Positions 13,086-25,053 of a DNA stretch of 26,843 bases are shown here, piece by piece (the stretch's first letter is position 1; the number at the start of each line of letters is the position of its first letter). A program made the translations under genes and the position numbers. Source of the stretch: a virus; the IMG/VR virus record IMGVR_UViG_3300024348_000202, positions 1-26,843 of that record. One strand, written 5' to 3'. Under the pieces are notes generated by a model. It was not told the DNA's origin. It did not search any database and saw nothing but the letters and a program-made list of their open reading frames with translations.

Positions 13086-13086
13086 G

Positions 13087-14360: not shown

Positions 14361-14392
14361 TTCTAGCTCCTGTTTAGTGTGTGTAAGTATGT

Positions 14393-14421: not shown

Positions 14422-14424
14422 CTG

Positions 14425-14634: not shown

Positions 14635-14879
14635 TTTCTAATGCTGATCTTGGCCAGCAGGGCTTTGACATCCATGGGCTCTGCAATGCCATCGTAGCAT
14701 TGTTCGATTGCCGCCATCTTCATCAGATCCACGATGCTCTTTGCTTCATTGCGGAAAGCCTGTGTGGGCAGTGCCTTGATGAAGCGATCAACTTCGGGCT
14801 TGTCTTCGCAGGCCCAGATGATATCTGCTAGGATCATCTGACGGGGTGTAAGACCTTCAAGTGTAAATTCAACTGACAT
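14631..14879 (-). CDS. conserved-looking phage protein, unknown function
   Basis: 82 residues from the ATG at 14879 (MSVEFTLEGLTPRQMILADIIWACEDK), chosen because an AAGGAG ribosome-binding site sits just upstream and the longer frame would run through the previous gene. It is helical with two Cys and no signal or membrane segment. The LTPRQMILADIIW...EVDRFIKALP text resembles small phage proteins I have seen annotated only as hypothetical. Coupled to its neighbours by a 4-nt overlap downstream. Confidence 0.65.
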   Translation of the reverse strand: MSVEFTLEGLTPRQMILADIIWACEDKPEVDRFIKALPTQAFRNEAKSIVDLMKMAAIEQCYDGIAEPMDVKALLAKISIRK

Positions 14880-14880
14880 T

Positions 14881-15114
14881 TTAGTACTCCTTCTTGTCGC
14901 CGTGGGCTTCGTTGTAATCATAGCCCATCATGTAGGCTTCGTATTCTGCTGTACCAGGTTCAAGGTCAACTCTCAGTCCTTGATAGGTGCCATCTGGCCA
15001 CTTGTGGGGATTGCGTGAGCGATTGTAATAACTGTCTGCGGCACCACGGTCAAATGCACCGCCATGTTTGGTAAAGGCTTTTGCTATCTGTGTTGGATCT
15101 ATTGCAACCATCAT
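14881..15114 (-). CDS. conserved-looking phage protein, unknown function
   Basis: 77 residues. The second half carries a GTYQGLRVDLEPGTAEYEAYMMGYDYNEA stretch, an Asn/Tyr-rich pattern common in small phage proteins with RGAADSYYNRSRNPH-like starts. There is no enzymatic motif. AAGGACC precedes the double ATG at 15114. It ends 1 nt before the ribosome-binding region of the next gene. Unknown function. Confidence 0.65.
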   Translation of the reverse strand: MMVAIDPTQIAKAFTKHGGAFDRGAADSYYNRSRNPHKWPDGTYQGLRVDLEPGTAEYEAYMMGYDYNEAHGDKKEY

Positions 15115-15120
15115 TGGTCC

Positions 15121-15255
15121 TTACTTTGACTTTGATTTAGCTTCTTGAGCGGCAATCTTACCGCTGTAGGCTTTGCCGGCACTGTGGATCAAACCGGTCT
15201 TTGTGTAGGTAATCGTTCCACCAGTGCTGGATGCGATTGGCTTAGGTAATGTCAT
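15121..15255 (-). CDS. 44-residue small protein, unknown function
   Basis: A short frame with a good ribosome-binding site (AAGGAC) before the ATG at 15255, reading MTLPKPIASSTGGTITYTKT, GLIHSAGKAYSGKIAAQEAK, SKSK and a TAA at 15121-15123. It is the first gene after the promoter at 15282-15310, and the next gene follows within 7 nt. Gly/Thr/Lys-rich with a basic tail. Position and ribosome-binding site support it; function is unknown. Confidence 0.6.
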   Translation of the reverse strand: MTLPKPIASSTGGTITYTKTGLIHSAGKAYSGKIAAQEAKSKSK

Positions 15256-15281
15256 TGTGTGTCCTTGTTGTGTAAGTCTGT

Positions 15282-15310
15282 ATTGTAACATAGAAAAACC
15301 TCGGTGTCAA
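15282..15310 (-). promoter_or_regulatory. sigma-70 promoter for genes 15255-14425
   Basis: TTGACA (15305-15310), 17 bp, TACAAT (15282-15287), extended -10 TGT. It heads a four-gene unit. Confidence 0.85.
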
Positions 15311-15399
15311 CCTACGAAGTGCCCAGGCGATGCAACCGGTGGCCTTACGGCAGGGGGTTGCTGTTGCAGGGTCTAGTGGTAGGCTGACACTCCGGCAAA

Positions 15400-15639
15400 T
15401 TATGCTACCTCTTTGAACACCTTGTAGCCGCGGCCCGCCAATACACGGATGGCCGATTGGACTTCTTGGTAGTTCTTTTCTTCCCAATCCAACATCTCTT
15501 TGGCACCCTTGATGGTGTCCTCATCGGAGGTGTTGCCTGAAGCAAAGTGAGTGTAGGCGTAGAACCGATCACCGTCCTCGTCCTTGCCCATTTGGATTGT
15601 ACCAATGTTCTTGTGTATCTGCAGTTCATTGAGTTTCAT
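15400..15639 (-). CDS. small phage protein, unknown function
   Basis: 79 residues starting MKLNELQIHKNIGTIQMGKDEDG. Acidic-aromatic text (RFYAYTHFASGNTSDEDTIKGAKEMLDWEEKNYQEV) ends in a basic strand (GRGYKVFKEVA). There is an AGGGAGC ribosome-binding site and a dedicated promoter. The overlapping frame 15405-15629 is a shadow. About 90 nt of Gly/Cys-codon-rich noncoding DNA with short dyads separates it from the next promoter. Confidence 0.65.
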   Translation of the reverse strand: MKLNELQIHKNIGTIQMGKDEDGDRFYAYTHFASGNTSDEDTIKGAKEMLDWEEKNYQEVQSAIRVLAGRGYKVFKEVA

Positions 15640-15669
15640 TTTGCGCTCCCTTTGTGTTAGTGTGTATGT

Positions 15670-15698
15670 ATTATAACAGCTTTAGACCCAGCTGTCAA
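15670..15698 (-). promoter_or_regulatory. sigma-70 promoter for gene 15400-15639, inside an upstream gene end
   Basis: TTGACA (15693-15698), 17 bp, TATAAT (15670-15675), extended -10 TGT. The -35 encodes part of the last codons (Val-Asp) of gene 15682-16068. A 6-bp dyad ACAGCT/AGCTGT spans the spacer. Confidence 0.9.
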
Positions 15699-16068
15699 CC
15701 ATCATAACGGGCTTCTTAAGGGCTCGCTTAACAAAGCTCTCGGGCTCGTCATCTACACGGACTAGCATATAGCCAAATGCCTCTACCAAGTCCACTTCTG
15801 CCACTTCCAGTTCCACGCCTGCCTTGTCAAAGGCAATGTTCATCTTAGTAAGGGCATACTTAACGCCTGCACAGAAGGCCTCGTGCTCGCTGTCTGTAAC
15901 GTCTTCAAAGTCGAAGTTCTCTACCATTACAGTCTCGTAGTCCTGTCCGTCTGCTACAATGAACGGGCGGATCTTAGCCCATTGCTTCTGGTCTACGCAG
16001 TCAAAATGGTCACAAGCTTCGTTAAGGTCGAAACTGTTAAACGCATCGTAGTTTACTTTTTTAGCCAT
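15682..16068 (-). CDS. acidic phage protein, unknown function
   Basis: 128 residues, strongly acidic and aromatic (FNSFDLNEACDHFDCVDQKQW, ENFDFEDVTDSEHEAF, VELEVAEVDLVEAFGYML). An alpha/beta mix with no known motif or membrane segment. The last codons, MMVDSWV, are at the same time the -35 region of the next unit. It has its own promoter (16099-16127) and a GGGAGC ribosome-binding site. Acidic DNA-mimic or inhibitor roles are common for early phage proteins, but nothing here proves it. Confidence 0.65.
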   Translation of the reverse strand: MAKKVNYDAFNSFDLNEACDHFDCVDQKQWAKIRPFIVADGQDYETVMVENFDFEDVTDSEHEAFCAGVKYALTKMNIAFDKAGVELEVAEVDLVEAFGYMLVRVDDEPESFVKRALKKPVMMVDSWV

Positions 16069-16098
16069 CTGTCGCTCCCTTTGTGTTAGTGTGTATGT

Positions 16099-16127
16099 AT
16101 TATAACAGGATTCTTAGGCCCTGTCAA
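16099..16127 (-). promoter_or_regulatory. sigma-70 promoter for gene 15682-16068, containing a stop codon
   Basis: TTGACA (16122-16127), 17 bp, TATAAT (16099-16104), extended -10 TGT. The TGA stop of gene 16124-16600 is read from within the -35 hexamer. A 5-bp dyad ACAGG/CCTGT spans the spacer. Confidence 0.9.
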
Positions 16128-16600
16128 CCTGCTAATTTGGCACGTAGCAGGTCGTTTAGAGTGGGCTGATGCTCTCCTGGAACAACCACACCCTCGACGA
16201 ACAGTTCCACAGACTCGCTGTAGTAGCCGTTGCTCTCACCCAACCAACGAACATCCACATAGCCCTTACGGGTAGCGAACTTGTAGAAGGTGTAAGTGTA
16301 GCTCTCGTCGTGCTCTTCGTCTGGCTCAGTGGCACCCTTGACTTCCTCAGCAACCAACAAAGGTTGGCCACACAGGTCCTGCAGGTCACCAACGATGTCG
16401 TTGATGTCCACGGACTCACAGCAGTCCTGTTGGTGAGCGAACATGAAACGCTCGCCCTGTGCTGTTTCGAACAGCATCTCGCCATCACCAACGGAACCAG
16501 TCACCTGCACAAAGGTCTTGCCCAGCATCTGTGCCATGCCCCGTTGAGTGTCTACTATGTTGTTGTAATCCATTTTGTGCTCCTGTTTGTTTGTGTCCAT
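16124..16600 (-). CDS. acidic phage protein, unknown function
   Basis: 158 residues; the ATG at 16600 (MDTNKQEHKMDYNN) has a modest leader, and an internal Met at residue 10 (MDYNNIVDTQRGMAQ, preceded by GGAG) is a better-supported alternative start at 16573. Beta-rich with acidic stretches (QDCCESVDINDIVGDL, EVKGATEPDEEHDESYTYTF). The stop codon lies inside the -35 hexamer of the next promoter. The opposite frames here are shadows. Unknown function. Confidence 0.65.
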   Translation of the reverse strand: MDTNKQEHKMDYNNIVDTQRGMAQMLGKTFVQVTGSVGDGEMLFETAQGERFMFAHQQDCCESVDINDIVGDLQDLCGQPLLVAEEVKGATEPDEEHDESYTYTFYKFATRKGYVDVRWLGESNGYYSESVELFVEGVVVPGEHQPTLNDLLRAKLAG

Positions 16601-16606
16601 GTGTGT

Positions 16607-16635
16607 ATTATAAGCTCATTTGGACAAGATGTCAA
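16607..16635 (-). promoter_or_regulatory. sigma-70 promoter for gene 16124-16600, inside an upstream gene end
   Basis: TTGACA (16630-16635), 17 bp, TATAAT (16607-16612). The -35 encodes Val-Asp in the C-terminal RLVDILSK of gene 16616-16825. Confidence 0.9.
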
Positions 16636-16825
16636 CCAGTCTTTGGTTGATCAAATCCATCTCTGCTTGCTCGACATAGAAGTCTGTGGTCGGATCGTAG
16701 TAGGCACCCTCTTTGTTGCAATAATACAACACTTTGCCCGAGAAGTTAAATGGACCTTCGAGTCCCTTGCGGGGGCCGTACTTGGTACGCATCATGTCTG
16801 TGGTGTCCAAAACCTTGTAGCCCAT
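16616..16825 (-). CDS. small phage protein, unknown function
   Basis: 69 residues from the ATG at 16825 (MGYKVLDTTDMMRTKYGPRKGLEGPFNFSG), preceded by AGGAGT at a normal distance. The longer frame to 16891 overlaps the short membrane-protein gene upstream and is less likely. The centre is Gly/Tyr-rich (GKVLYYCNKEGAYYDPTTDF) and the end is helical. The last codons double as the next unit's promoter. Unknown function. Confidence 0.65.
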   Translation of the reverse strand: MGYKVLDTTDMMRTKYGPRKGLEGPFNFSGKVLYYCNKEGAYYDPTTDFYVEQAEMDLINQRLVDILSK

Positions 16826-16826
16826 A

Positions 16827-16940
16827 TTAAACTCCTGCGATGAAAGAGAGGCCAACCATGCAATAGATTGCGACCAGTTGAGCAATTCCAAAATGGAACA
16901 TGGCCCAAACTACAGTACACCAACCTATCAATTTCAGCAT
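16827..16940 (-). CDS. 37-residue single-helix membrane protein
   Basis: A short frame too small for usual gene callers. It begins at the ATG at 16940 after AAGGAGTTGATC and ends with TAA at 16827-16829, one base before the ATG of the next gene. The product is almost entirely hydrophobic: MLKLIGWCTVVWAMFHFGIA then QLVAIYCMVGLSFIAGV. Its own ribosome-binding site and first position in a promoter-led unit support it. It is likely a one- or two-helix inner-membrane peptide of early phage type. Confidence 0.65.
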   Translation of the reverse strand: MLKLIGWCTVVWAMFHFGIAQLVAIYCMVGLSFIAGV

Positions 16941-16966
16941 GATCAACTCCTTGTTGCGATGTATGT

Positions 16967-16995
16967 ATTATAGCACCAAACAATAACCCAGTCAA
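16967..16995 (-). promoter_or_regulatory. sigma-70 promoter for genes 16940-16616
   Basis: TTGACT (16990-16995), 17 bp, TATAAT (16967-16972), extended -10 TGC. Confidence 0.88.
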
Positions 16996-17006
16996 CCGGC
17001 GGGTCT

Positions 17007-17237
17007 TTACAGGTTCTCTCCAGTCTCAGCGTCAATGGCGCCAGTGTAGACTGCCTTGAATCCGTTGCCGGTCTCGAGCCAGCCATTTATGTTCCAGTTA
17101 TCACGATGCTGGTTGTAGAATCCCGCCCACATGAGTGCATCCTCACGGGTGTTGAACTCTTCCTCTCTGATGACCTTGTGATCATTCACATGACCAGCAT
17201 AGACAGGGTAGACTTGAACATTGTGTACGATCATCAT
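17007..17237 (-). CDS. small phage protein, unknown function
   Basis: 76 residues starting MMIVHNVQVYPVYAGHVNDHKV, with Asn/Trp-rich text (RDNWNINGWLETGNGF). A GGAGCAC ribosome-binding site precedes the start, and it follows the gene at 17245 by 7 nt, so the pair is one unit. No motif, signal or membrane segment is seen. Unknown function. Confidence 0.6.
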   Translation of the reverse strand: MMIVHNVQVYPVYAGHVNDHKVIREEEFNTREDALMWAGFYNQHRDNWNINGWLETGNGFKAVYTGAIDAETGENL

Positions 17238-17244
17238 GTGCTCC

Positions 17245-17559
17245 TTACCAAGCCAGCTCTTTGGCGGGGTAGCGGATGGAGCCCTCGTACTCCAACTGGT
17301 CCTTTTCGAACTCTGTGAGGTAGTCGTTGGCTACGATCTCCCAACCGATGATCGTCTCGCGGAAGCCTTCATTGTCCTGCTCAATCTGACCACGCAGAGC
17401 CATCACGGTCTCTGTGACCTTGTTGAGGTCTTTGAACTTCTTGACCACGTAGTCGTTGCCGCCCTTGGCTTTCCAGTACTGTGGGCACTCACCAACGCCG
17501 TCCCAATCGTGGGCACCGTAGTTCTCGTAAACCTGTGTAGTGATTAGTAGTTTAGCCAT
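17245..17559 (-). CDS. conserved-looking phage protein, unknown function
   Basis: 104 residues starting MAKLLITTQVYENYGAHDWDGVGECPQYWKAKGG. The middle is a helix (KKFKDLNKVTETVMALRGQIEQDN) and the tail has YLTEFEKDQLEYEG. The Tyr/Trp/Gly-rich first part resembles small hypothetical proteins shared by phages and some bacteria. It has its own promoter at 17594-17622. Function unknown. Confidence 0.7.
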   Translation of the reverse strand: MAKLLITTQVYENYGAHDWDGVGECPQYWKAKGGNDYVVKKFKDLNKVTETVMALRGQIEQDNEGFRETIIGWEIVANDYLTEFEKDQLEYEGSIRYPAKELAW

Positions 17560-17593
17560 TGTGTGTTCCTAGTGTGTTGCTGTCTATGTGTCT

Positions 17594-17622
17594 ATTATAG
17601 CAAGGTTTTACCAATCTGTCAA
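17594..17622 (-). promoter_or_regulatory. sigma-70 promoter for genes 17559-17007
   Basis: TTGACA (17617-17622), 17 bp, TATAAT (17594-17599), extended -10 TGC. The spacer contains TGGTAAAACC and is identical over all 17 bp to that at 22037-22053. Confidence 0.92.
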
Positions 17623-17653
17623 CCATTCAAGTGTTGTATTTTTACAACAAGAT

Positions 17654-17713
17654 GAACCCCACGCACTTCACAGTGGGCGGGGTTCGGGGGTTGCCTGGGA
17701 CACTACCCCCAGG
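17654..17713 (-). terminator. two stem-loops between units (possible terminator)
   Basis: After the stop of gene 17730-17999, two GC-rich dyads occur: CCTGGG (17694-17699) with CCCAGG (17708-17713), and GAACCCC (17654-17660) with GGGGTTC (17679-17685). No T tract follows, so termination efficiency is uncertain. Confidence 0.4.
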
Positions 17714-17729
17714 ACTTCGGAGCGAACTC

Positions 17730-17999
17730 TTAGACTAGGCCAAGCGCCAATGCTTTGTAACCAGCGGCAACGATCTTGCGGCTTGGTGTACCGATTGTGT
17801 ACTCGGTAACTTCAACATGGTTGCCAGCGGTACGCTTGTTAGCGTAAACGGCATAACCACTTTGACGAATGCGACTGACTTCGGCACTCACGTTCTTAAT
17901 ACCAAAACGCTTCTCTGCTTGGCTAGCAGTAACCTTCTCGCCGTTGTACATTGCGTTGAACAACTTGAAAGTTTTTGTTTCTTCACTAAATCTTTTCAT
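17730..17999 (-). CDS. small winged-helix/HTH-like DNA-binding protein
   Basis: 89 residues. The stretch TFKLFNAMYNGEKVTASQAEKRFGIKNVSAEVSRIRQSGYAVYANKR reads as a helix-turn-helix or winged helix: a helix, the turn 'VTASQAEKRFGI', a recognition helix with Ser/Arg, then a basic wing. Proteins of this type are common in phages and may act as repressors of the early promoters next to it, but no operator is proven. A basic end and the dedicated promoter (18043-18071) support it as a real gene. Confidence 0.7.
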   Translation of the reverse strand: MKRFSEETKTFKLFNAMYNGEKVTASQAEKRFGIKNVSAEVSRIRQSGYAVYANKRTAGNHVEVTEYTIGTPSRKIVAAGYKALALGLV

Positions 18000-18042
18000 T
18001 TTATGTTTTCCTTATAAGTTCTGTTTCTCAACAGTTGCTACT

Positions 18043-18071
18043 AGTATAGCAAGTATAACCTATAAGGTCAA
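18043..18071 (-). promoter_or_regulatory. weaker sigma-70 promoter for gene 17730-17999
   Basis: TTGACC (18066-18071), 17 bp, TATACT (18043-18048), extended -10 TGC. Two deviations from consensus make it the weakest of the leftward set, fitting a regulator gene. Confidence 0.8.
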
Positions 18072-18286
18072 GCATTAATTTTGCCAAACTCTCGACCCAC
18101 ATAGTGAGCAATGAGTTCTCTTTGGATTTGGGTAACAAGATCACCGTGTGAATCGTTTACCACAAACCTTACAGGGCATCTGCCCCAGGCACCGTACTTA
18201 TTAAAGTTGGCAAACCATTTGCGATGTTCTTTGTTGTGGGCATCAAATACTACCCAAGGTCTTCCGAATAATTGTAATCTGCTCAT
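18068..18286 (-). CDS. small phage protein, unknown function
   Basis: 72 residues starting MSRLQLFGRPWVVFDAHNKEHRKWFANFNKYGAWGRCPVRFVVNDSHG. The middle has a GAWGRCPVRF stretch and the tail is helical. It is basic and Trp-rich with no signal. It may be the second gene of the unit from 18818-18846, though a stem-loop lies between them. Its end overlaps the promoter of the HTH gene. Unknown function. Confidence 0.6.
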   Translation of the reverse strand: MSRLQLFGRPWVVFDAHNKEHRKWFANFNKYGAWGRCPVRFVVNDSHGDLVTQIQRELIAHYVGREFGKINA

Positions 18287-18312
18287 AGTCTCTCTGAATA
18301 CCCCGGTGTGCT

Positions 18313-18340
18313 AGAGGGGACTTATTGGCACTGCCCCTCT
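18313..18340 (-). terminator. stem-loop between genes 18345-18761 and 18068-18286
   Basis: AGAGGGG (18313-18319) pairs with CCCCTCT (18334-18340) with a 14-nt loop, right after the stop at 18345. No T tract on the minus strand, so it may be an attenuator or a partial terminator. Confidence 0.45.
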
Positions 18341-18344
18341 TTGA

Positions 18345-18761
18345 TTAGTAAGGTGCGTCTTCCATGTCAGCCAACTGGGCTATCACTTCGGCCTTGGAGA
18401 CTGTAGTCTTAGGGGCCTTGGCACGAATAGCCGCTAGCGTGGGCTTAGGAGCAGGAGCCTTCTTAGGCTTCTTAGCTTCCTTCTTAGGCTTGTCCTTAGA
18501 CGCAGCCTTGGGCGTATTGCCACGCTTGTCAACTTCAGACTCCAATGCTGCACGAACAGCAGTGTTGCCGTTGTCGAAGTCGATGCTGATCAGATAAGCA
18601 AGGGCTTCTTCCTTGTTCATTGGGTTCTTCAACTCAACGATGTCGATGTCAGTGTGACCGTTCTTGATCAACACCTTAGTACGCATCGCGTCATTTGCGA
18701 AACGAACTTTGAACTCACCGTCCAACTTAGAAACACCTGCATGGGTAAATGATTTAGACAT
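18345..18761 (-). CDS. conserved-looking phage protein with Lys/Ala/Pro-rich C-terminal linker
   Basis: 138 residues. The N-terminal 75 residues (MSKSFTHAGVSKLDGEFKVRFANDAMRTKVLIKNGHTDIDIVELKNPMNKEEALAYL) form a conserved-looking alpha/beta domain that I remember from several aquatic T4-like phages. A low-complexity basic linker (KPKKEAKKPKKAPAPKP) leads to a short helical tail (VSKAEVIAQLADMEDAP). The basic linker suggests nucleic-acid or membrane contact. Own promoter at 18818-18846. Function unknown. Confidence 0.7.
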   Translation of the reverse strand: MSKSFTHAGVSKLDGEFKVRFANDAMRTKVLIKNGHTDIDIVELKNPMNKEEALAYLISIDFDNGNTAVRAALESEVDKRGNTPKAASKDKPKKEAKKPKKAPAPKPTLAAIRAKAPKTTVSKAEVIAQLADMEDAPY

Positions 18762-18817
18762 AAAATCTCCTTATGTGTGAATGTCTGTGTGTCCTGCGAA
18801 CTATTTCGCATTAATTA

Positions 18818-18846
18818 ATTATAACACAATTGGGCGGCTGTGTCAA
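18818..18846 (-). promoter_or_regulatory. sigma-70 promoter for genes 18761-18068
   Basis: TTGACA (18841-18846), 17 bp, TATAAT (18818-18823), extended -10 TGT. A 5-bp dyad ACACA/TGTGT spans the spacer. Confidence 0.9.
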
Positions 18847-18859
18847 CCGTTTTTTGGTT

Positions 18860-19042
18860 TTATGCGCCGTAGTAGGGACTATAGATCTCGTCCTCCTGTG
18901 GCGAATCCGCCACACCAGTGTCTTCTAGGAAGCCCAATACTTGTTCAATCGGGCAATCCAAAGTTACTGCAATCATCTTGGCACTCATGCCGTCAATGTA
19001 CAGTTGCTCAATGTCGTAGGCTAAGTCTTTAATCGCGCTCAT
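18860..19042 (-). CDS. 60-residue protein with HTH-like helix pair
   Basis: Starts MSAIKDLAYDIEQLYIDGMSAKMIAVTLDCPIEQVLGFLEDTG. The text 'LYIDGMSAKMIAVTLDCPIEQVLGFLED' has the spacing of a helix-turn-helix (small residue, turn, second helix), as in sigma-region-4-like or phage HTH proteins. The acidic tail (ADSPQEDEIYSPYYGA) is short. The start overlaps the stop of the gene at 19039 (ATGA). A DNA-binding role is inferred only. Confidence 0.6.
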   Translation of the reverse strand: MSAIKDLAYDIEQLYIDGMSAKMIAVTLDCPIEQVLGFLEDTGVADSPQEDEIYSPYYGA

Positions 19043-19515
19043 TCTGCTGTCTCCTCTTGTGCAATTCGATCTTGTTCGTCTGCAATTGCAGACTTCAATG
19101 TAACATAGGGGTCATCGTGGCATTGAACATACCAGTTGCCGTCTTTGCGTAGGATGTACTCGTATTCCTCGTATGAGTGATGAGCCAAGTAGTCCTGGAA
19201 GTCAACGAACTTGTGTGCAACAAGTTTCTCGCCGCGATCGCGGGCGTAGAAGGTACACATATTTGCTGTCCGATTGATAAAGGCTTCTACTTCTTCCTTA
19301 GGCAAGTCAAACTGGCTAAAGGCGTGCTTGGTACCAATTGTAGGGCGCAGGCTACTCAAGCCGCCCAGGTCAATCAAGTCACGCAAGATGAACGGGTTAC
19401 TGTAGTGCTCCAACAGCATCAAGCCGTTGTGTGCCAAGTAGCCGTCCCAGTGACAGTAGACTTGCTCTACTGTGCCGTCTGCGAATTCCAATGCGATAGT
19501 GCTTCGTGTTGCCAT
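19039..19515 (-). CDS. phage/bacterial hypothetical protein of the MATRSTIAxE..CHWDGY family
   Basis: 158 residues. It begins MATRSTIALEFADGTVEQVYCHWDGYLAHNG, an opening shared by a family of proteins common to phages and bacteria without a known function. The rest includes HYSNPFILRDLIDLGGLSSLRPTIG and ARDRGEKLVAHKF. It has its own promoter (19544-19572) and an AGGAGC ribosome-binding site. First gene of a two-gene unit. The opposite frame 19177-19617 is a shadow. Confidence 0.75.
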   Translation of the reverse strand: MATRSTIALEFADGTVEQVYCHWDGYLAHNGLMLLEHYSNPFILRDLIDLGGLSSLRPTIGTKHAFSQFDLPKEEVEAFINRTANMCTFYARDRGEKLVAHKFVDFQDYLAHHSYEEYEYILRKDGNWYVQCHDDPYVTLKSAIADEQDRIAQEETAE

Positions 19516-19543
19516 TGTGTGCTCCTAGTGTGTGTAAGTGTTT

Positions 19544-19572
19544 ATTATAACAGCTTATGCCAGTTCTGTCAA
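19544..19572 (-). promoter_or_regulatory. sigma-70 promoter for genes 19515-18860, inside an upstream gene end
   Basis: TTGACA (19567-19572), 17 bp, TATAAT (19544-19549), extended -10 TGT. The -35 is read as codons Leu-Thr in the C-terminal YHLTELA of gene 19555-19809. Confidence 0.9.
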
Positions 19573-19809
19573 ATGGTAGTCAACATAGACCTTATCCACT
19601 GTGTGGTTATAGTCTAACCACACTTTGGTGCTGTCAGTGCCACCTTTCACATGGAACACTGCCATGTAGCAGAACTGTCCACCGTTAGTGATGCCCAAGA
19701 ACTTTGCACCTGTGAACTCTGGGCCTCGGTAGCCGCAACGTTGAGCCTCTCGGGTCAGGTCCTGTGCTGTGTACGAGATAAGTGTTTTGAGTGTGTCTGC
19801 TGTGATCAT
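19555..19809 (-). CDS. small phage protein, unknown function
   Basis: 84 residues from the ATG at 19809 (MITADTLKTLISYTAQDLTREAQRCGY). That ATG overlaps the stop of the tiny membrane gene as ATGA; the in-frame ATG at 19824 lies inside that gene and is less likely. Beta-rich second half (KFLGITNGGQFCYMAVFHVKGG, VWLDYNHTVDKVYVDYHL). The last codons contain the -35 of the next unit. No recognised motif. Confidence 0.65.
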   Translation of the reverse strand: MITADTLKTLISYTAQDLTREAQRCGYRGPEFTGAKFLGITNGGQFCYMAVFHVKGGTDSTKVWLDYNHTVDKVYVDYHLTELA

Positions 19810-19898
19810 TTTACCATCCACCATATTAAAGTTATAAAGGCCACCATCACTGCTTTGAACAGTAACATCTCTAAGAAAAATTTAGTATCTTCGCTCAT
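19806..19898 (-). CDS. 30-residue single-helix membrane protein
   Basis: A short frame from ATG at 19898 to TGA at 19806-19808, reading MSEDTKFFLEMLLFKAVMVA then FITLIWWMVK. The C-terminal 20 residues are a transmembrane helix with Trp-Trp at the interface. Its stop overlaps the start of the next gene (ATGA), and it begins 1 nt after the stop of the gene at 19900, so it sits exactly in a co-translated string. This fit is the main evidence; the ribosome-binding site (GAGATTGAT) is modest. Function unknown. Confidence 0.6.
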   Translation of the reverse strand: MSEDTKFFLEMLLFKAVMVAFITLIWWMVK

Positions 19899-19899
19899 A

Positions 19900-20154
19900 T
19901 CAATCTCTGCAAGTTTCTAGACCGCGGTCCTCGTTGCCGTACTCGCTCTCACGTCCTGCTTCGTCCTCAAGTTCCTCTGCGGCACTTAGGAATGCTTCGC
20001 ACATATTGAACAGTTCCTGATAGGCCCTCTTCTCTGTGCGGTTCAGTTCCTGCAGGAACATAGGGCCTTCTTCGCGCATGGCTTCCATCACTTGCCCCAG
20101 TGCAGACAGGGTGTTCTCGCACATGCAGTAACTCATATTTGGGTAGCTTGACAT
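19900..20154 (-). CDS. conserved-looking phage protein, unknown function
   Basis: 84 residues starting MSSYPNMSYCMCENTLSALGQVMEAM. A Cys/Met-rich N-terminus, then a helix pair (FLQELNRTEKRAYQELFNMCEAFLSAAEELEDEAG). The MSYPNMSYCM-ENT opening is familiar from T4-like phages, where it is hypothetical. Own promoter at 20185-20213 with a GGAGCAAC ribosome-binding site. First gene of a three-gene unit. Confidence 0.7.
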   Translation of the reverse strand: MSSYPNMSYCMCENTLSALGQVMEAMREEGPMFLQELNRTEKRAYQELFNMCEAFLSAAEELEDEAGRESEYGNEDRGLETCRD

Positions 20155-20184
20155 TGTTGCTCCTTAGTGTTTCAGTGTGTCATA

Positions 20185-20213
20185 ATTATAACACGGTTTT
20201 ACCATTCTGTCAA
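20185..20213 (-). promoter_or_regulatory. sigma-70 promoter for genes 20154-19555
   Basis: TTGACA (20208-20213), 17 bp, TATAAT (20185-20190), extended -10 TGT, spacer with TGGTAAAACC. Confidence 0.92.
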
Positions 20214-20215
20214 CC

Positions 20216-20233
20216 AAAAGCCCTTTCGGGCTT
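20216..20233 (-). terminator. rho-independent terminator of gene 20238-20576
   Basis: Minus-strand AAGCCC-GAAA-GGGCTT, a GNRA-capped 6-bp stem, followed by TT. It lies 4 nt after the stop of gene 20238-20576 and directly before the -35 of the next promoter, so each unit is separated. Confidence 0.75.
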
Positions 20234-20237
20234 AGGG

Positions 20238-20576
20238 TTATGCGTTTTGCATAAACGTGTTAATAAAACGCTCGCCAACATCGCAGGACACATAAGTGTC
20301 TCCCTGCATACCCTGCTCGCTATACGACACATCGCTAGCGTCAAAGCCCTTAGCAGTTAACAGCTTTTTAAGCTCTTTCATAAACTGTTTGTCTGTATAT
20401 ATGAGACCCAGATTGTTTACATCCCAAGTTGCAGTATTAAAACACACACGCAACTCGCCAAAGTCCAGTTCGTCGTTTGTGTATGCAAGTTGCAGTGCCG
20501 TAATCTCTACAGCCGTTTTAGTGTTGCTCCAAAAGCCGCCGCCGCCTGTGCGTAGTGTTGCTGTTACTTTGTACAT
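20238..20576 (-). CDS. phage protein, unknown function
   Basis: 112 residues starting MYKVTATLRTGGGGFWSNTKTAVEITALQLAYTNDELDFGELRVCFNTATWDVNNLGLIYTDKQFMKEL. A beta-rich fold with a Gly cluster; the second half carries GFDASDVSYSEQGMQGDTYVSCDVGERFINTFM. No enzymatic motif. It has its own promoter and terminator, a one-gene unit. Confidence 0.65.
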   Translation of the reverse strand: MYKVTATLRTGGGGFWSNTKTAVEITALQLAYTNDELDFGELRVCFNTATWDVNNLGLIYTDKQFMKELKKLLTAKGFDASDVSYSEQGMQGDTYVSCDVGERFINTFMQNA

Positions 20577-20602
20577 TGTGTTTCCTTTGTTGCTAAGTGT
20601 GT

Positions 20603-20631
20603 ATTATAACGCAGAACAGCGCATCTGTCAA
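20603..20631 (-). promoter_or_regulatory. sigma-70 promoter for gene 20238-20576
   Basis: TTGACA (20626-20631), 17 bp, TATAAT (20603-20608). No extended -10 TG and no TGGTAAAACC box. Confidence 0.9.
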
Positions 20632-20662
20632 ATACGCTGTTAAGACCCTACAGGCAGCAGGG

Positions 20663-21280
20663 TTATTCGTTAGTGGCGCTCAGGCCACCATCGAGGTCGA
20701 TGTCAATGTTCTCGTCTTCCTCTGCGTTCTCTGCTTCCCATTCAGCCACACTCTCGCTGATGCCAAACGCTTCGTCAAGTGCTGATGGCAAAGTCTCTGC
20801 AATGCCTACACTGTCTAAGCCGCCATACTCGTAGTAGTCATCCTGGCCGTCTTCAAAGATGCCAGCAAACGCCATGCCCGGCTCGTAATACATAGCAAGG
20901 ATCTTAAAGCCCAGTTCCTCTAGTTTCTCATAAGCCTGAATAGGAGGAGCCCAGGCACTGTCAAAGCCTACAATGATGCCACCGTCGAAGTCATTAAGGA
21001 CTCCATCGTCGCCACCAACATCCCACTTGGTGCCCCACTCGTTGACACAGAAGTCATACCAGTTGCCGTAGCCATGCGTGACTCGGTTCAGCTCAGTCTG
21101 CTCTACCAACTTAGCCTGCTCCACGGCATCACCTACTGAACCTGCTACAATCTGTAGATCCTCCGGCACTGGAATGAACTCCGCCAGCAAGCGACCATCA
21201 AGGAACGCAGCCTTGGCTCGGGCGATCATTGCTGGGTCTTCGTGTTCCAGCGTCAATGTGTTGTTGCACCAATTAGGCAT
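20663..21280 (-). CDS. Api92/YubB-type ferredoxin-like phage protein (DUF1281-like)
   Basis: 205 residues. The opening MPNWCNNTLTLEHEDP and the later FCVNEWGTKWDVGG, with FDSAWAPPIQAYEKLEELGF, are the landmarks of the Api92-like/DUF1281 family (usually MPNWCxNxLxV ... ENRWGTKWxxx ... FxTAWxPP). Members are found in phages and plasmids and lack a known activity. The C-terminal 45 residues are a disordered acidic tail (EWEAENAEEDENIDIDLDGG). It is the last of a unit with genes at 21273 and 21454 and overlaps the former by 8 nt. Confidence 0.85.
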   Translation of the reverse strand: MPNWCNNTLTLEHEDPAMIARAKAAFLDGRLLAEFIPVPEDLQIVAGSVGDAVEQAKLVEQTELNRVTHGYGNWYDFCVNEWGTKWDVGGDDGVLNDFDGGIIVGFDSAWAPPIQAYEKLEELGFKILAMYYEPGMAFAGIFEDGQDDYYEYGGLDSVGIAETLPSALDEAFGISESVAEWEAENAEEDENIDIDLDGGLSATNE

Positions 21281-21452
21281 AAGGGACCTCTGTTAAGTAT
21301 GATTTAAGATTAGTGTCAGGCACTGCCTTCAATAGTTCCTCAAGGGCTGTTAAGTCGCCGTTCATCAAGTCTTCTGCAATCTGTTCAAGAACTAGATCGA
21401 TCAAATCCCGGTCCTCTAAGAGATTGTCATCTGCTGGATTATAGATAGCCAT
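21273..21452 (-). CDS. 59-residue acidic phage protein
   Basis: A short frame from ATG at 21452 to TAA at 21273-21275: MAIYNPADDNLLEDRDLIDL, VLEQIAEDLMNGDLTALEEL, LKAVPDTNLKSYLTEVPYA. Helical and acidic, with the 'LIDLVLEQIAEDLMNGDLTALEELL' pattern common in T4-like phage small proteins. GGAG is positioned before its ATG (GGAGATCTAAA). It starts 1 nt after the stop of the upstream gene and overlaps the Api92-like start by 8 nt, so it belongs to that unit. Confidence 0.75.
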   Translation of the reverse strand: MAIYNPADDNLLEDRDLIDLVLEQIAEDLMNGDLTALEELLKAVPDTNLKSYLTEVPYA

Positions 21453-21453
21453 T

Positions 21454-21720
21454 TTAGATCTCCATTTCGTATTCGTAGAACTTAACCGCAGGATCCAACT
21501 TCTTCAGTTGCTTGGCCGCTGTCATCAGTTCCTTGTATCTCCGATTGACCTCTGCACGGGGCAGTTCGCCATCGCAGGTAAGGTTCTCAGGGCTTAGAGC
21601 CGCATCAATCATATCTGCAATGCGCTGACGACCTTTAGCAGTTTGGATCTCATACTGCTCGCCTTTGAAGAATGAGTTCCAGTGATTCTTCTGCTCGATA
21701 AACTTTGCTAGTGCTTGCAT
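21454..21720 (-). CDS. small phage protein, unknown function
   Basis: 88 residues starting MQALAKFIEQKNHWNSFFKGEQYEIQTAKGRQRIADMI. Basic, helical, with several Lys/Arg pairs and RYKELMTAAKQLKKLDPAVKFYEYEMEI at the end. No membrane segment or catalytic motif. GGAGCAAC precedes the start. First gene of a three-gene unit. Unknown function. Confidence 0.65.
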   Translation of the reverse strand: MQALAKFIEQKNHWNSFFKGEQYEIQTAKGRQRIADMIDAALSPENLTCDGELPRAEVNRRYKELMTAAKQLKKLDPAVKFYEYEMEI

Positions 21721-21752
21721 AGTTGCTCCTTAGTTGCTGTGTGTAAGTGTGT

Positions 21753-21781
21753 ATTGTAACACGGTTTTACCATGTTGTCAA
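21753..21781 (-). promoter_or_regulatory. sigma-70 promoter for genes 21720-20663
   Basis: TTGACA (21776-21781), 17 bp, TACAAT (21753-21758), extended -10 TGT, spacer with TGGTAAAACC. The -35 begins 9 bp after the 3' arm of the candidate RNA. Confidence 0.9.
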
Positions 21782-21789
21782 CCCCTAAT

Positions 21790-22024
21790 GGACAGTTAGA
21801 AAAAAGTTAAAGGAAGTTCTTGACACGCATCACCAACTTGCGTCAAGACCTCATTACAGCCTAGCGGTCCGCCGCCTTCCTGGAGTTTGATAGTCCTTAT
21901 CCTCGGGCTCGATGGTGTCTCGCCTTACTTTAGGACCCTCCTGCTTCATGGGTATCCGGGTCGTATCACCCTTCGTTCACCCCTAGCGGACTAGGTAACC
22001 TTTAACTCTTTTCTAACTGTCCAT
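21790..22024 (-). ncRNA. candidate structured noncoding RNA, about 235 nt
   Basis: No ORF of note occupies this gap, but it has its own consensus promoter (22031-22059) whose predicted +1 is 22024. The first transcribed bases form the 5' arm (22022-21999) of a 24-bp helix closed by the 3' arm (21813-21790), with one non-Watson-Crick position (G-U or A-C type). Inside it, CCTAGTCCGC pairs with GCGGA and CTAGG around a 3-nt bulge (CCG), and a 3' hairpin CTTGACGCA/TGCG-T-GTCAAG sits at 21819-21847. Further short stems (GGGT/ACCC, GTCCT/AGGAC) fill the interior. The transcript ends at the next promoter. I match it to no RNA family I know. Confidence 0.7.
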
Positions 22025-22030
22025 GTGCTT

Positions 22031-22059
22031 ATTATAGCAAGGTTTTACCAATCAGTCAA
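22031..22059 (-). promoter_or_regulatory. sigma-70 promoter of the candidate ncRNA, containing a stop codon
   Basis: TTGACT (22054-22059), 17 bp, TATAAT (22031-22036), extended -10 TGC, spacer identical to that of the promoter at 17594. The TGA stop of gene 22056-22295 is part of the -35. There is no ribosome-binding site or ATG downstream that starts a gene. Confidence 0.9.
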
Positions 22060-22295
22060 CCAAATGCTTTGTATAACCCTACAGCCATTGTGGCTAAGCC
22101 TGCAACGTTGACTGCCATCTGTGGCTTATTTGCCACACGGATGGTCCATGTCAAGAACAGTGCAGTTCCCACAGCGAACGCGGCAATGTTCCAAATGTCC
22201 CTGTGATAGGCACTCCCCATGGTGTTGAGCACGTGTCCTACAGTGATGAAGAACGCCCCCGTCCACTGTAGTACTTCATCCTTATTAATAGTCAT
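22056..22295 (-). CDS. small membrane protein, unknown function
   Basis: 79 residues with three hydrophobic stretches: AFFITVGHVLNTMGS, IAAFAVGTALFLTWTI and AVNVAGLATMAVGLYKAFG. Few charges separate them, typical of a small multi-pass membrane protein. It overlaps the upstream gene by 4 nt and its stop lies in the -35 of the ncRNA promoter. Last gene of the unit from 23083-23111. No family recognised. Confidence 0.65.
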   Translation of the reverse strand: MTINKDEVLQWTGAFFITVGHVLNTMGSAYHRDIWNIAAFAVGTALFLTWTIRVANKPQMAVNVAGLATMAVGLYKAFG

Positions 22296-22669
22296 GCCAC
22301 ATGTCCTGCATCAAGTTCCCAACTCAGGTTCTGAAACGTCTTGTACAAGCGATAGACCTGCGTCTTAGCTTCTGCTAGAGCCACTGAGATTTCGTTCTCC
22401 GCAAGCCCGTCAGTAAGGACCTCTCGGGCGTCTTTGTATAAGCATCCGCCCACACTGGACGATCCAATCTCGAGCCCTTCAACCAGGACGCGGACCCGGA
22501 GGATGAACCAGTCAAGATTCCCGCACTCGATGTCCTCGCAGAGTTGTTTGATATCACTGACGCAGTCGTCAAAGAGGTCGTTGGGGTGAGTGTCTTCATA
22601 GGTCTTCTCCACGATGATATCAAAGCCGTTGCGTTCGTAAACTGCCAGTTCGTCGTATTCGCGTGTCAT
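22292..22669 (-). CDS. acidic helical phage protein, unknown function
   Basis: 125 residues. The N-terminus MTREYDELAVYERNGFDIIVEKTYEDTHPNDLFDDCVSDIKQLCEDIECGNLDWF is beta then helix, and the second part is helical with a Gly/Ser loop. Three Cys lie in a helix (DDC, QLCED, ECG). Resemblance to T4-like small proteins is general. Overlaps both neighbours by 4 nt. The frame 22375-22623 is a shadow. Confidence 0.65.
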   Translation of the reverse strand: MTREYDELAVYERNGFDIIVEKTYEDTHPNDLFDDCVSDIKQLCEDIECGNLDWFILRVRVLVEGLEIGSSSVGGCLYKDAREVLTDGLAENEISVALAEAKTQVYRLYKTFQNLSWELDAGHVA

Positions 22670-22839
22670 AGTGTACCTTCCATTTGTCTAATAGTCACAT
22701 CTTGTATCTCTACACTTAGGTTCCACTCCAAAGAGCTGGCCCTAGTGGGGTAGTCTTCTACCAAGATCCTTGCTAACTTAGCAAGACTCTCATTGCTCAT
22801 GAACGCCAGTTCACTGGCCAATAGTTCTAGCTTGGTCAT
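22666..22839 (-). CDS. 57-residue phage protein, unknown function
   Basis: A short frame from ATG at 22839 (AAGGAAAC upstream) to TGA at 22666-22668: MTKLELLASELAFMSNESLA, KLARILVEDYPTRASSLEWN, LSVEIQDVTIRQMEGTL. A helix pair and a short strand. It overlaps the next gene by 4 nt (ATGA) and follows gene 22849 by 9 nt, so it is part of the four-gene unit. Unknown function. Confidence 0.65.
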   Translation of the reverse strand: MTKLELLASELAFMSNESLAKLARILVEDYPTRASSLEWNLSVEIQDVTIRQMEGTL

Positions 22840-22848
22840 CTTGTTTCC

Positions 22849-23052
22849 TTATCGATTGGCAAATTCGCAGTCAGCACCGTTAGGTCCCACCTTGACTTCA
22901 TCAAACCAGACGAAATCATGACAGAAGTCATGCCTTGAATCTTCCAACACTGCACATCGAGCTTCAGCCAGCTTGGCAGTGGGATACACTCCGTAGATGA
23001 TGCTCTCAGGAGCGCCACGGTCCTCAGCACGTACAATAAAAACTGAAGTCAT
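22849..23052 (-). CDS. small conserved-looking phage protein, unknown function
   Basis: 67 residues starting MTSVFIVRAEDRGAPESIIYGVYPTAKLAEARCAVLEDSRHDFCHDFVWFDEVKVGPNG. A strand-helix-strand pattern with VFIV, a helix AEARCAVLED and EVKVG, resembling small phage proteins that carry only a hypothetical label. An overlapping frame (22836-23036) is a shadow. First gene behind the promoter 23083-23111. Confidence 0.65.
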   Translation of the reverse strand: MTSVFIVRAEDRGAPESIIYGVYPTAKLAEARCAVLEDSRHDFCHDFVWFDEVKVGPNGADCEFANR

Positions 23053-23082
23053 TTTGTTTCCTTAGTGTGTTGCGATGTGTGT

Positions 23083-23111
23083 ATTATAACAGGGTTCTTA
23101 GGCCCTGTCAA
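23083..23111 (-). promoter_or_regulatory. sigma-70 promoter for genes 23052-22056
   Basis: TTGACA (23106-23111), 17 bp, TATAAT (23083-23088), extended -10 TGT, and a 6-bp dyad ACAGGG/CCCTGT across the spacer. Its spacer differs from that at 16105-16121 by one base. Confidence 0.92.
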
Positions 23112-23116
23112 CCGCC

Positions 23117-23323
23117 TTAGCAGTCTGCGTCAAAGCTTTCCCACTCCTGGGCTTCGTCGGGCTGGCCGTCATCCTCATCTTCTTCGTCGAGAATGTCGTT
23201 GCTTCGCATCATATCCGCAACATCGTCCTCGCTCATGTAAGCGAGAGCCATCTCTGCAATGGCTTGGGCGCTGATCAATCCCTCGTCCATCATCTCAAGC
23301 AAACGTGTAGTCTGTGTACGCAT
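23117..23323 (-). CDS. small acidic phage protein, unknown function
   Basis: 68 residues. A helical N-terminal part (MRTQTTRLLEMMDEGLISAQAIAEMALAYMSEDDVADMMRSNDI) with the 'MMDEGLISAQAIAEMALAYMSEDDVADM' text familiar in T4-like phages, followed by a strongly acidic tail (DEEDEDDGQPDEAQEWESFDADC). Own promoter at 23349-23377; the next promoter begins 6 nt after its stop. Function unknown. Confidence 0.7.
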   Translation of the reverse strand: MRTQTTRLLEMMDEGLISAQAIAEMALAYMSEDDVADMMRSNDILDEEDEDDGQPDEAQEWESFDADC

Positions 23324-23348
23324 ATCAACTCCTTGTTAGTGTAGGACA

Positions 23349-23377
23349 ATTATAACACGGTTTTACCACTCTGTCAA
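23349..23377 (-). promoter_or_regulatory. sigma-70 promoter for gene 23117-23323
   Basis: TTGACA (23372-23377), 17 bp, TATAAT (23349-23354), extended -10 TGT, spacer with TGGTAAAACC. Confidence 0.92.
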
Positions 23378-23451
23378 CCATGATCCGGGTCTTAGGTCTT
23401 TAAGTGCTTCTGGCACTGCCCTGGTTGACGCCCGGAAAGGAATTCATTGAA

Positions 23452-23781
23452 TCAATAGTGATGACGTGAACCAACATAGTTGAAGTCATTCATCGGGTCA
23501 GCCATGTCCTCAATCACTGTGAGCATATTCGCAGGCACTCTCCAAAGTCCGTTAACAGTCTGTACTGTGACGTACTTGATAGCGATCTTCATCACTACGC
23601 CAGTGACGTTGCGACCCTGCTTGACACTGTTGAAGTTGACATTGTCGCCTATACGCAGGCCTCGCTTGGTCTGTTCTGTAAGACGTGCTCGTGCAAACTT
23701 CACAGCGTCGATGATTGAGATCAGTTGATCGTTGGTGAAGTTACCCTGCAGGATCTCTGCGTTGACTGTTTGAATGCTCAT
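23452..23781 (-). CDS. phage protein with KOW-like beta core, unknown function
   Basis: 109 residues: an N-terminal helix pair (FTNDQLISIIDAVKFARARLTEQTKRGLRIGD), then a strand-rich core (DNVNFNSVKQGRNVTGVVMKIAIKYVTVQTVNGLWRVPANMLTVI). The 'L-x-x-GD-x-V-x-F......G-x-V' arrangement with 'KYVTV......WRVPANML' recalls KOW/SH3-like nucleic-acid-binding domains, common in phage small proteins. Start overlaps the upstream stop (ATGA). A 70-nt gap below it holds a small hairpin (GTGC/GCAC at about 23403-23415). Confidence 0.65.
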   Translation of the reverse strand: MSIQTVNAEILQGNFTNDQLISIIDAVKFARARLTEQTKRGLRIGDNVNFNSVKQGRNVTGVVMKIAIKYVTVQTVNGLWRVPANMLTVIEDMADPMNDFNYVGSRHHY

Positions 23782-23972
23782 GTCAGCTCCTTGTTAGTGT
23801 AAGTGTTTATTATAGCACCGGTTTTACCATCTGTCAACCGAAAAGTCATCACAGGATGTATCCGTTGCATCTTGACAACTTCCCTGCGGGCCCGGGCCAG
23901 GCTGTAGTCCTTCCAGTAGTGTCCGGAATACAGCCGATCCTTGTAATACATCTGGCATATATAACTGTACAT
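23778..23972 (-). CDS. small phage protein whose C-terminus overlaps a promoter
   Basis: 64 residues from the ATG at 23972, which overlaps the previous stop as TGATG; the GTG at 23975 is a secondary start. The text MYSYICQMYYKDRLYSGHYWKDYSLARARREVVKMQ is Tyr-rich and basic. The last 20 residues (RLTDGKTGAIINTYTNKELT) are encoded entirely by the promoter and leader of the next gene, so the tail may be a by-product of promoter placement. It stops in an ATGA overlap. Function unknown. Confidence 0.65.
   Translation of the reverse strand: MYSYICQMYYKDRLYSGHYWKDYSLARARREVVKMQRIHPVMTFRLTDGKTGAIINTYTNKELT
23809..23837 (-). promoter_or_regulatory. sigma-70 promoter for gene 23452-23781, inside gene 23778-23972
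   Basis: TTGACA (23832-23837), 17 bp, TATAAT (23809-23814), extended -10 TGC, spacer with TGGTAAAACC, all within the coding 3' end of the upstream gene. Confidence 0.9.
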
Positions 23973-24256
23973 CACATGGTCCAGTAGAGTTCGCTAGAGG
24001 GATCACAACTGCGGGGAGTGTCATGTGCTATTTGTACGTCTACGCCCGTCATCAAGTTCTTCACAGTCTTCATTGTGGCTACGAACTCGAGTCGGTAGCC
24101 CTGCGACACGGGCCACGTAGAGTATTGCAACTCCCGCACCTCACGAGCCATCTCAGCGGCATCCCTGTTGCGCCATACAGTAGTTGACAACAGACGCTCG
24201 CCGCTTTTGGTGCGCTTGTCTGCTTTGTATATATACAGTGTGTGGTCTACTTTCAT
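23972..24256 (-). CDS. phage protein, unknown function
   Basis: 94 residues starting MKVDHTLYIYKADKRTKSGERLLSTTVWRNRDAAEMAREVREL. The pattern is strand, basic loop, strand, helix, strand, as in a small alpha/beta fold: TLYIYKADKR-TKSGERLLSTTVWRN-RDAAEMAREVREL-YRLEFVATMKTVKNLMTGV. Own promoter at 24284-24312 and a GGAGCAAC ribosome-binding site. No known family. Followed by a coupled gene (TGATG). Confidence 0.65.
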   Translation of the reverse strand: MKVDHTLYIYKADKRTKSGERLLSTTVWRNRDAAEMAREVRELQYSTWPVSQGYRLEFVATMKTVKNLMTGVDVQIAHDTPRSCDPSSELYWTM

Positions 24257-24283
24257 TGTTGCTCCTTGTTAGTGTATGTGTTT

Positions 24284-24312
24284 ATTATACAGTGGTTTTA
24301 CCATGTTGTCAA
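24284..24312 (-). promoter_or_regulatory. sigma-70 promoter for genes 24256-23778
   Basis: TTGACA (24307-24312), 17 bp, TATAAT (24284-24289), spacer with TGGTAAAACC. Confidence 0.92.
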
Positions 24313-24323
24313 CCAATGCCCCT

Positions 24324-24662
24324 TCAATCCCCACGGCAATCAGTGTTCAACACGGGCTTCACGGCCCTACGGATCTCAACTTCTCTACGATGAGCTTCTG
24401 CCTTGCCGCGAATGACTTCGTGTACGAAGACAGCAATCTCACTCTTGTCTGCAAGTGTACGAAGCTCTGCACACAGAAGCCAGTTCTTAGTCTCGGTCTT
24501 TGCACGATAGAAATGCTTTGCGGCACGTGACAGTACACTCTTGTTCACAGTAGACTCTGTCTTGGCAGTGACGCCTATGTAGTTCTTGCCATTGACCACG
24601 AGCTCATATATGATATGATTGCGGTCTGTGCGCTTTTTGCGGGTTAGTGTTTGTGTCGTCAT
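24324..24662 (-). CDS. GIY-YIG-like nuclease-fold protein
   Basis: 112 residues. The GIY-YIG motif appears as IIY (17-19) and YIG (28-30), in IIYELVVNGKNYIGVTAK. A conserved-type Arg lies at 46 (SVLSRAAKHF), and a Glu in HRREVEIRR (E94) precedes KPVLNTD, as expected for the catalytic Glu and the 'P..N' end. Small free-standing nucleases of this fold occur in T4-like phages, cutting host DNA or homing. Only one domain is present, with a basic N-tail (TRKKRTDRN). The start ATG coincides with the predicted transcription start, so initiation may be leaderless. Confidence 0.75.
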   Translation of the reverse strand: MTTQTLTRKKRTDRNHIIYELVVNGKNYIGVTAKTESTVNKSVLSRAAKHFYRAKTETKNWLLCAELRTLADKSEIAVFVHEVIRGKAEAHRREVEIRRAVKPVLNTDCRGD

Positions 24663-24667
24663 AGTGT

Positions 24668-24696
24668 ATTATAGCAAGGTTTTACCACTCTGTCAA
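24668..24696 (-). promoter_or_regulatory. sigma-70 promoter for the GIY-YIG gene
   Basis: TTGACA (24691-24696), 17 bp, TATAAT (24668-24673), extended -10 TGC, spacer with TGGTAAAACC. Only 5 nt separate the -10 from the ATG. Confidence 0.92.
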
Positions 24697-24736
24697 CCAA
24701 AGACCCTACAACAAGACCGTGTACTAAAAGCCACAC

Positions 24737-24765
24737 TTGACGGCACTCCAAAAAGACACTATAAT
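24737..24765 (+). promoter_or_regulatory. sigma-70 promoter for the rightward genes 24793-25224
   Basis: TTGACG (24737-24742), 17 bp, TATAAT (24760-24765), followed by an ACACAC leader as in the leftward set. It is back to back with the promoter at 24668-24696, so this is the only divergent early promoter pair. Confidence 0.88.
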
Positions 24766-24792
24766 ACACACATACACTAAAAAGGAGCTCCT

Positions 24793-25053
24793 ATGTTAAG
24801 TACTGCATTTAATACACTTGCTAAAGCAAAACTTGTTTATAATCGCAATAAAGAATTATATAAATTAGTAATTGCGTTTAACGTACATACTAAAGTAAAA
24901 GATAATGGAGATATTGTGCATATATTCCCTACACAAGCAAAATGCGCTTATGTTAGCGGAGATATTATATATGAGGAACTGCAAGCAGAAGTAAGTCGCT
25001 TAACAGACGTTGCAAAACTGCAATTACGTACAGATAATATAGAATTTGTTTAA
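24793..25053 (+). CDS. small AT-rich phage protein, unknown function
   Basis: 86 residues with an ideal ribosome-binding site (AAAGGAGCTCCT) before ATG 24793. The text MLSTAFNTLAKAKLVYNRNKELYKLVIAFNVHTKVKDNGDIVHIFPTQAKCAY is helix then strands. It is much richer in A and T than the leftward genes next to it, and on the opposite strand, which suggests a different origin. No motif is recognised. Confidence 0.65.
   Translation: MLSTAFNTLAKAKLVYNRNKELYKLVIAFNVHTKVKDNGDIVHIFPTQAKCAYVSGDIIYEELQAEVSRLTDVAKLQLRTDNIEFV

Follow-up and report, generated by a model that had tools for sequence, protein, structure and literature searches.

A structured RNA family of jumbo phages with an invariant core and exchangeable arms

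Locus and promoter

The analysed stretch of DNA, a 26.8-kb IMG/VR fragment hereafter called the window, is most likely jumbo phage DNA. Its DnaB-type helicase shared 49% identity with those of Pseudomonas phage PA5oct and Agrobacterium phage Atu_ph07. ARAGORN detected a single tRNA gene in the window, for tRNA-Met, and no tmRNA. The part between 12 and 25 kb was of early type, with small genes on the minus strand, many of them preceded by a near-perfect sigma70 promoter. Approximately 19 near-identical consensus promoters were found on the minus strand at 12000–25000, mostly directly 5' of one small gene, giving a very regular layout; six of them had the spacer TGGTAAAACC in common.

One early promoter had been singled out in the initial annotation as having no gene behind it. 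A comparison of the ORF list with the promoters bore this out: the promoter at 22059–22031 was the sole one of the approximately 19 without a nearby start codon downstream, and the gene that follows next (21720–21454, 88 aa, minus strand) has a promoter of its own at 21781–21753. The sequence behind the promoter was identified as an RNA gene with the following features, listed in the direction of transcription.

22031–22059, minus strand: sigma70 promoter TTGACT-17-TATAAT with extended -10 (promoter scan; same promoter type in relatives)
21788–22024, minus strand: RNA gene of approximately 237 nt (family model built without the window, E = 6e-19; covariation)
21999–22024, minus strand: closing stem P1, 5' arm (folding and inverted-repeat search; strong covariation across the family)
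21982–22000, minus strand: most conserved block, GGUUACC(U/A)AnnCCGnUAGG, comprising the end of P1, the UUA joint and the P2 5' strand (invariant columns)
21986–21995, minus strand: P2 5' strand, CCUAGUCCGC (covariation and helix tests)
21950–21982, minus strand: hairpin arm P3 with a GGGU/ACCC outer helix and an inner helix (inner helix covaries)
21882–21941, minus strand: arm P4 with terminal loop GACACCAUCG (compensatory changes in five of seven inner pairs)
21913–21917, minus strand: CACCA in the P4 loop, which probably contacts UGGUG in the P5 loop (co-occurrence)
21860–21872, minus strand: P2 3' strand, GCGGA-ccg-CUAGG, with a 3-nt bulge (covariation)
21852–21857, minus strand: conserved joint GUAAUG between P2 and P5 (invariant columns)
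21818–21848, minus strand: hairpin arm P5 at the 3' side (helix test; exchangeable module across the family)
21831–21835, minus strand: UGGUG in the P5 loop (co-occurrence with ACACCA)
21788–21813, minus strand: closing stem P1, 3' arm, forming 26 bp with the 5' arm (inverted-repeat search)

The promoter matched the consensus at 11 of 12 positions and carried a TG before the -10 box. P1 begins 7 nt downstream of the -10 box, at the expected transcription start (approximately 22024).

Fold of the RNA

P1 consisted of 25 Watson-Crick pairs and one G-U pair, and no other inverted repeat of such quality was present in the window. The initial annotation had described this stem as a 24-nt end-to-end arm with one non-Watson-Crick pair; the locked ends and the single G-U pair were recovered, and the arm proved to be 26 nt long (22024–21999 with 21813–21788). 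The second long-range helix with a 3-nt bulge that it had proposed was real and conserved and is here called P2, in which CCTAGTCCGC pairs with GCGGA-ccg-CTAGG. The hairpin it had placed on the 3' side, at 21819–21847, is the P5 arm, and the interior was gene-free as described, with no ORF of at least 50 aa within the RNA gene. Folding suggests that the UUA and UAA bases, which are invariant, may extend P2.

Minus-strand folding gave a z-score of -5.3, and none of 200 shuffles was as low. The plus strand reached a z-score of -6.4; its good fold is due to the inverted repeat.

Family membership and covariation

Viral contigs were first searched with two neighbouring proteins, and relatives were recognised when the RNA was compared with the loci so found. 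In these relatives, which lay both at the same locus and elsewhere, the ends were conserved while the interiors had diverged. Scanning for the pattern of the most conserved block, GGTTACCWANNCCGNTAGG, yielded many more loci, and at least 79 distinct sequences of approximately 190–280 nt were extracted from metagenomic jumbo phages. Since further scans still added members to the window's subtype and to the CCAACTCCGG subtype, the true family is larger than 79.

Alignments made with MAFFT for each subtype folded independently to one plan, in which P1 closes the molecule, the bulged P2 follows, P3 and P4 stand on top, and P5 lies between P2 and P1. When a covariance model (R1) was made from 26 relatives, excluding the window, it recovered the window RNA (E = 6e-19) and every other subtype. 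The first MAFFT alignment, of 26 sequences without the window, had two-sided changes in 42 of 64 pairs, and no shuffle reached any of the measures. In an alignment of 58 members with a median identity of 58%, 90.7% of 3347 base-pair cells were kept and 731 cells were changed on both sides, compared with a shuffle mean of 219 (0 of 500 shuffles reached the observed value); two-sided changes occurred in 52 of 64 pairs. When the partner was slid as a control, pairing fell to 38–48%. The 58-member alignment was fitted to the model and its counts lean the model's way, and the unfitted MAFFT alignment of 26 sequences gave the same result. When members of the window's own subtype were compared with the structure drawn from the window, 96.5% of cells were paired and 15 pairs had two-sided changes.

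G-U cells were far more numerous than A-C cells (417 vs 65), so the RNA strand under selection is the one transcribed from the promoter. These comparative data exclude a chance origin of the fold, and we regard the existence of the RNA family as nearly certain. The helices proposed from the single sequence were therefore conserved in relatives with strong covariation, and the candidate for a new structured RNA with an early promoter gained homologues in many contigs, most tested genomes having a single copy. Comparison also brought out what the sequence by itself had not revealed, namely that the RNA mostly occupies other loci, often tRNA arrays, that a conserved core bears exchangeable arms, and that two loops are probably in contact.

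Conserved core and exchangeable arms

Invariant or nearly invariant positions comprised GGUUACC, the A and CC that follow it, and UAGG. The same held for two further motifs, GAA between P3 and P4 and UAAUG between P2 and P5. P1, P2 and P5 meet in a three-way junction with the conserved joints UUA and GUAAUG, and a second junction bears P3 and P4. The P1/P2/P5 junction with GGUUACC(U/A)AnnCCGnUAGG and GUAAUG, by which membership of the proposed family was judged, was supported by covariation. GGUUACC is presumably complementary to the 16S 3' region over seven bases; it lies within the paired and junction segment, and the match was not counted as evidence.

P3, P4 and P5 each occurred in several forms, which were exchanged between subtypes. 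Among the matches listed, UGGUG was present in P5 in 14 of 14 members with an ACACCA P4 loop and in one of 65 members without it. The retention of UGGUG by two different P5 arms suggests a loop-loop contact. Pairing of CACCA in P4 with UGGUG in P5 is thus probable, a reading based on co-occurrence among related members in which both sequences are invariant and hence do not covary.

Genomic context

Classified by simple rules, the 79 members extracted had their own promoter in 31 cases, a tRNA array in 35, both in one and neither in 14. In most of these 31 promoter-driven members, P1 started 3–17 nt after the -10 box. Several members of the class with neither were preceded by a second, smaller RNA with its own promoter.

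In the tRNA arrays, every neighbouring tRNA found was on the strand of the RNA. Counted from the first base of the P1 3' arm, the downstream tRNA commonly started after 25–33 nt, and the arm itself was typically 23–31 nt long. Since the tRNA often begins where P1 ends, these positions suggest that RNase P would make the 3' end of the RNA. An extra short hairpin preceded the element upstream of P1 in several arrays (L177, L204, L254 and L315). Motifs resembling TATATGTAAACAC recurred in array spacers and may serve as a processing signal common to the array.

Copy number and companion genes

Exactly one copy of the RNA was present in 18 of 20 large phage contigs (147–383 kb), and the window's helicase was found in 16 of the 20 with 55–81% identity. 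Two helicase-bearing relatives with tRNAs and tmRNA (G004 and G016) had no copy by the model, by a motif search allowing two mismatches or by a core model; the RNA is therefore not universal. Related phages very likely rely on it.

Nine RNA-bearing genomes were tested for companion RNA genes: eight encoded 24–39 tRNAs and all nine had one permuted tmRNA gene. Over all 11 genomes tested for other RNA genes, 12–39 tRNAs were found in 10, and just two tRNAs were detected in G007, a genome of the promoter type. Exactly one permuted (two-piece) tmRNA gene scored above the Rfam cut-off in each of the 11 (G001, G002, G004, G005, G007, G009, G011, G012, G013, G016 and G017), and another was observed at L185:3150–3572.

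Searches of isolate phages with blastn, using the window RNA and four concatenated subtypes as queries, returned short chance pieces or nothing. The full model R1 and the core model R2, with strict filters, found nothing in PA5oct, Atu_ph07, Phosso, XaC1, Vibrio 2.275.O or Erwinia SNUABM_19. Four matches to the exact core motif, to which the search of GTDB genomes was limited, were all rejected by the model.

Comparison with known RNAs

An Rfam search, as the initial annotation had advised, gave no match even at permissive thresholds, neither for the window RNA region (Rfam 15, 4227 models, E up to 10) nor at the member coordinates of 20 further loci (E up to 1). The models covered 6S, tmRNA, RNase P, SRP, GOLLD, ROOL, group I and group II introns and riboswitches, among others. 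No description of the family was found in the open-access literature, screened mostly by title and abstract.

GOLLD and ROOL are phage and prophage RNAs of unknown function that often lie near tRNA islands (2025 cryo-EM study, PMC12286853). Like the RNA described here they are phage-encoded, elaborate and often close to tRNAs, but the ROOL model (RF03087) spans 574 positions and many GOLLD RNAs exceed 800 nt, whereas the new family measures approximately 190–280 nt and has a different fold. Both GOLLD and ROOL form large homo-oligomeric cages. The GOLLD model gave no cmscan match in the window, where the RNA is 237 nt long, or in the member loci scanned. The ROOL model likewise matched nothing in the window, in the loci scanned or in 20 member-type genomes, the last being a search in which the positive-control genomes were also silent.

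The T4 RNAs rnaC and rnaD (species 1 and 2 RNA) are small stable RNAs beside phage tRNA genes, a niche like that of the new RNA, but at 139 and 119 nt they are shorter. Kinship with them was examined by running R1 unfiltered on T4 positions 69500–73500 and was rejected: the best hit, of 8.9 bits, fell outside rnaC and rnaD, and nothing credible lay over them. Since the models did not match and both size and fold are different, the RNA does not belong to GOLLD, ROOL or T4 rnaC/rnaD. tmRNA (tmRNA_permuted, RF04321) resembles it in its closed ends, its single copy and its occurrence in the same phages, but it is encoded separately in these genomes, and the new RNA had no detected tRNA-like domain or tag frame and no Rfam match. 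Judged by these comparisons, the family is new and unrelated to them, shares the niche of phage RNAs beside tRNA genes, and is not catalogued in Rfam.

Proposed role

The probable explanation of the whole is a single-copy, trans-acting, highly structured phage RNA that acts on translation or tRNA metabolism; this overall judgement blends near certainty about the RNA family with a much more tentative view of the translation part. A core that stays invariant while its arms are exchanged points to an RNA acting in trans, as do the neighbours, which differ between phages. A role in translation or tRNA metabolism is suggested by the company that the RNA keeps with tRNAs and tmRNA, and we propose it tentatively from this gene neighbourhood. 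The two tRNAs of G007, and the tRNAs and tmRNA in G004 and G016 without a copy of the RNA, are points against it.

RNA families with such covariation and a near-universal single copy in a lineage are usually central in role. We know of no established function for the large phage RNAs described so far (GOLLD, ROOL and T4 rnaC/rnaD). It is conceivable, though doubtful, that the single-copy, double-junction RNA represents a new class of RNA core that remodels translation or RNA metabolism or is catalytic, with a standing like that of tmRNA or RNase P RNA and not that of a small regulator.

A less likely reading is that the RNA counters host defence. Produced in abundance, it would serve as a structured decoy and, early in infection, occupy or inhibit an immune RNase, a sensor or an anticodon nuclease of the host. 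The early promoter in the window and the adjoining tRNAs are consistent with such a decoy, and arm exchange with the core held constant would be in keeping with an arms race; PMC12409363 describes tRNAs that some viruses encode against tRNA-cutting defences. Yet one copy with an invariant core in diverse phages resembles a housekeeping part more than a decoy.

Two further functions are far less likely than the decoy and about equal to each other. A regulator that shifts transcription by binding the host's RNA polymerase would share with 6S RNA the paired ends and the early-type promoter that drives it, but 6S RNA is a long rod with one central bubble, whereas the new RNA is a multi-branched junction and had no Rfam match to the 6S family. 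A catalytic or ligand-binding RNA, either a ribozyme or a standalone sensor, could have the invariant junctions as its active site, and its conserved core, invariant unpaired joints and variable peripheral arms recall group I introns and RNase P RNA; against this, no ribozyme or riboswitch family matched, no gene is interrupted, and the downstream genes vary between members.

A leader RNA controlling the 88-aa gene is very improbable and largely refuted by the varied neighbours: that gene is the next on the same strand and no intrinsic terminator was found between the two, but it has its own promoter, and in relatives the RNA precedes unrelated genes or tRNAs. A DNA element, whether a mobile element ending in inverted repeats or a site of replication or recombination, is largely excluded, for although 26-bp inverted repeats form the ends, both strands fold and the gene is placed differently in different phages, the P1 sequence changes freely with complementarity kept, the excess of G-U over A-C cells marks one strand as selected as RNA, genomes having the RNA carry exactly one copy, and no duplicated target site was seen at the flanks.

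For the preferred reading of a trans-acting RNA in translation or tRNA metabolism, we envisage the following mechanism. The RNA is predicted to be stable and discrete. In the window phage, a strong host-type promoter active early would set its 5' end; in the relatives with tRNA arrays, tRNA processing would cut out the ends, including the 3' end by RNase P. The invariant core would then act on the infected cell's translation machinery or on its tRNA metabolism, as part of a phage RNA kit with the tRNAs and tmRNA. The peripheral arms would hold the core in shape via loop-loop contacts and may bind partners.

At approximately 190–280 nt, the RNA is small enough for direct structural work, and dozens of natural variants define its core. 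The family also marks which phages to study. The identity of its partner could reveal what jumbo phages need beside tRNAs and tmRNA for translation in a dying host, or could point to a new anti-defence RNA.

Other observations at the loci

On the plus strand of the window, at 2882–4001, two ORFs look by eye like a cytidylyltransferase and a sugar kinase of the PfkB type, which together would recall the heptose pathway enzyme HldE in split form. At L227:493–568 in a phage contig, ARAGORN predicted a tRNA that has the anticodon CUA and the label Pyl; it may be an amber suppressor. A second RNA of approximately 95 nt, with its own sigma70 promoter, was observed in L015, L018, L044, L053, L169, L246 and L257, either upstream of the main RNA or alone. 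It followed the pattern AAGGCGATCCTCAAATGYAAGAACCC..GCAG..ATGCAAAAAGGGTTGTARCCAAGGGATACG..GAGTTTGGAGACTCGGCC and had no Rfam match in the loci scanned; it is likely another uncatalogued phage RNA family.
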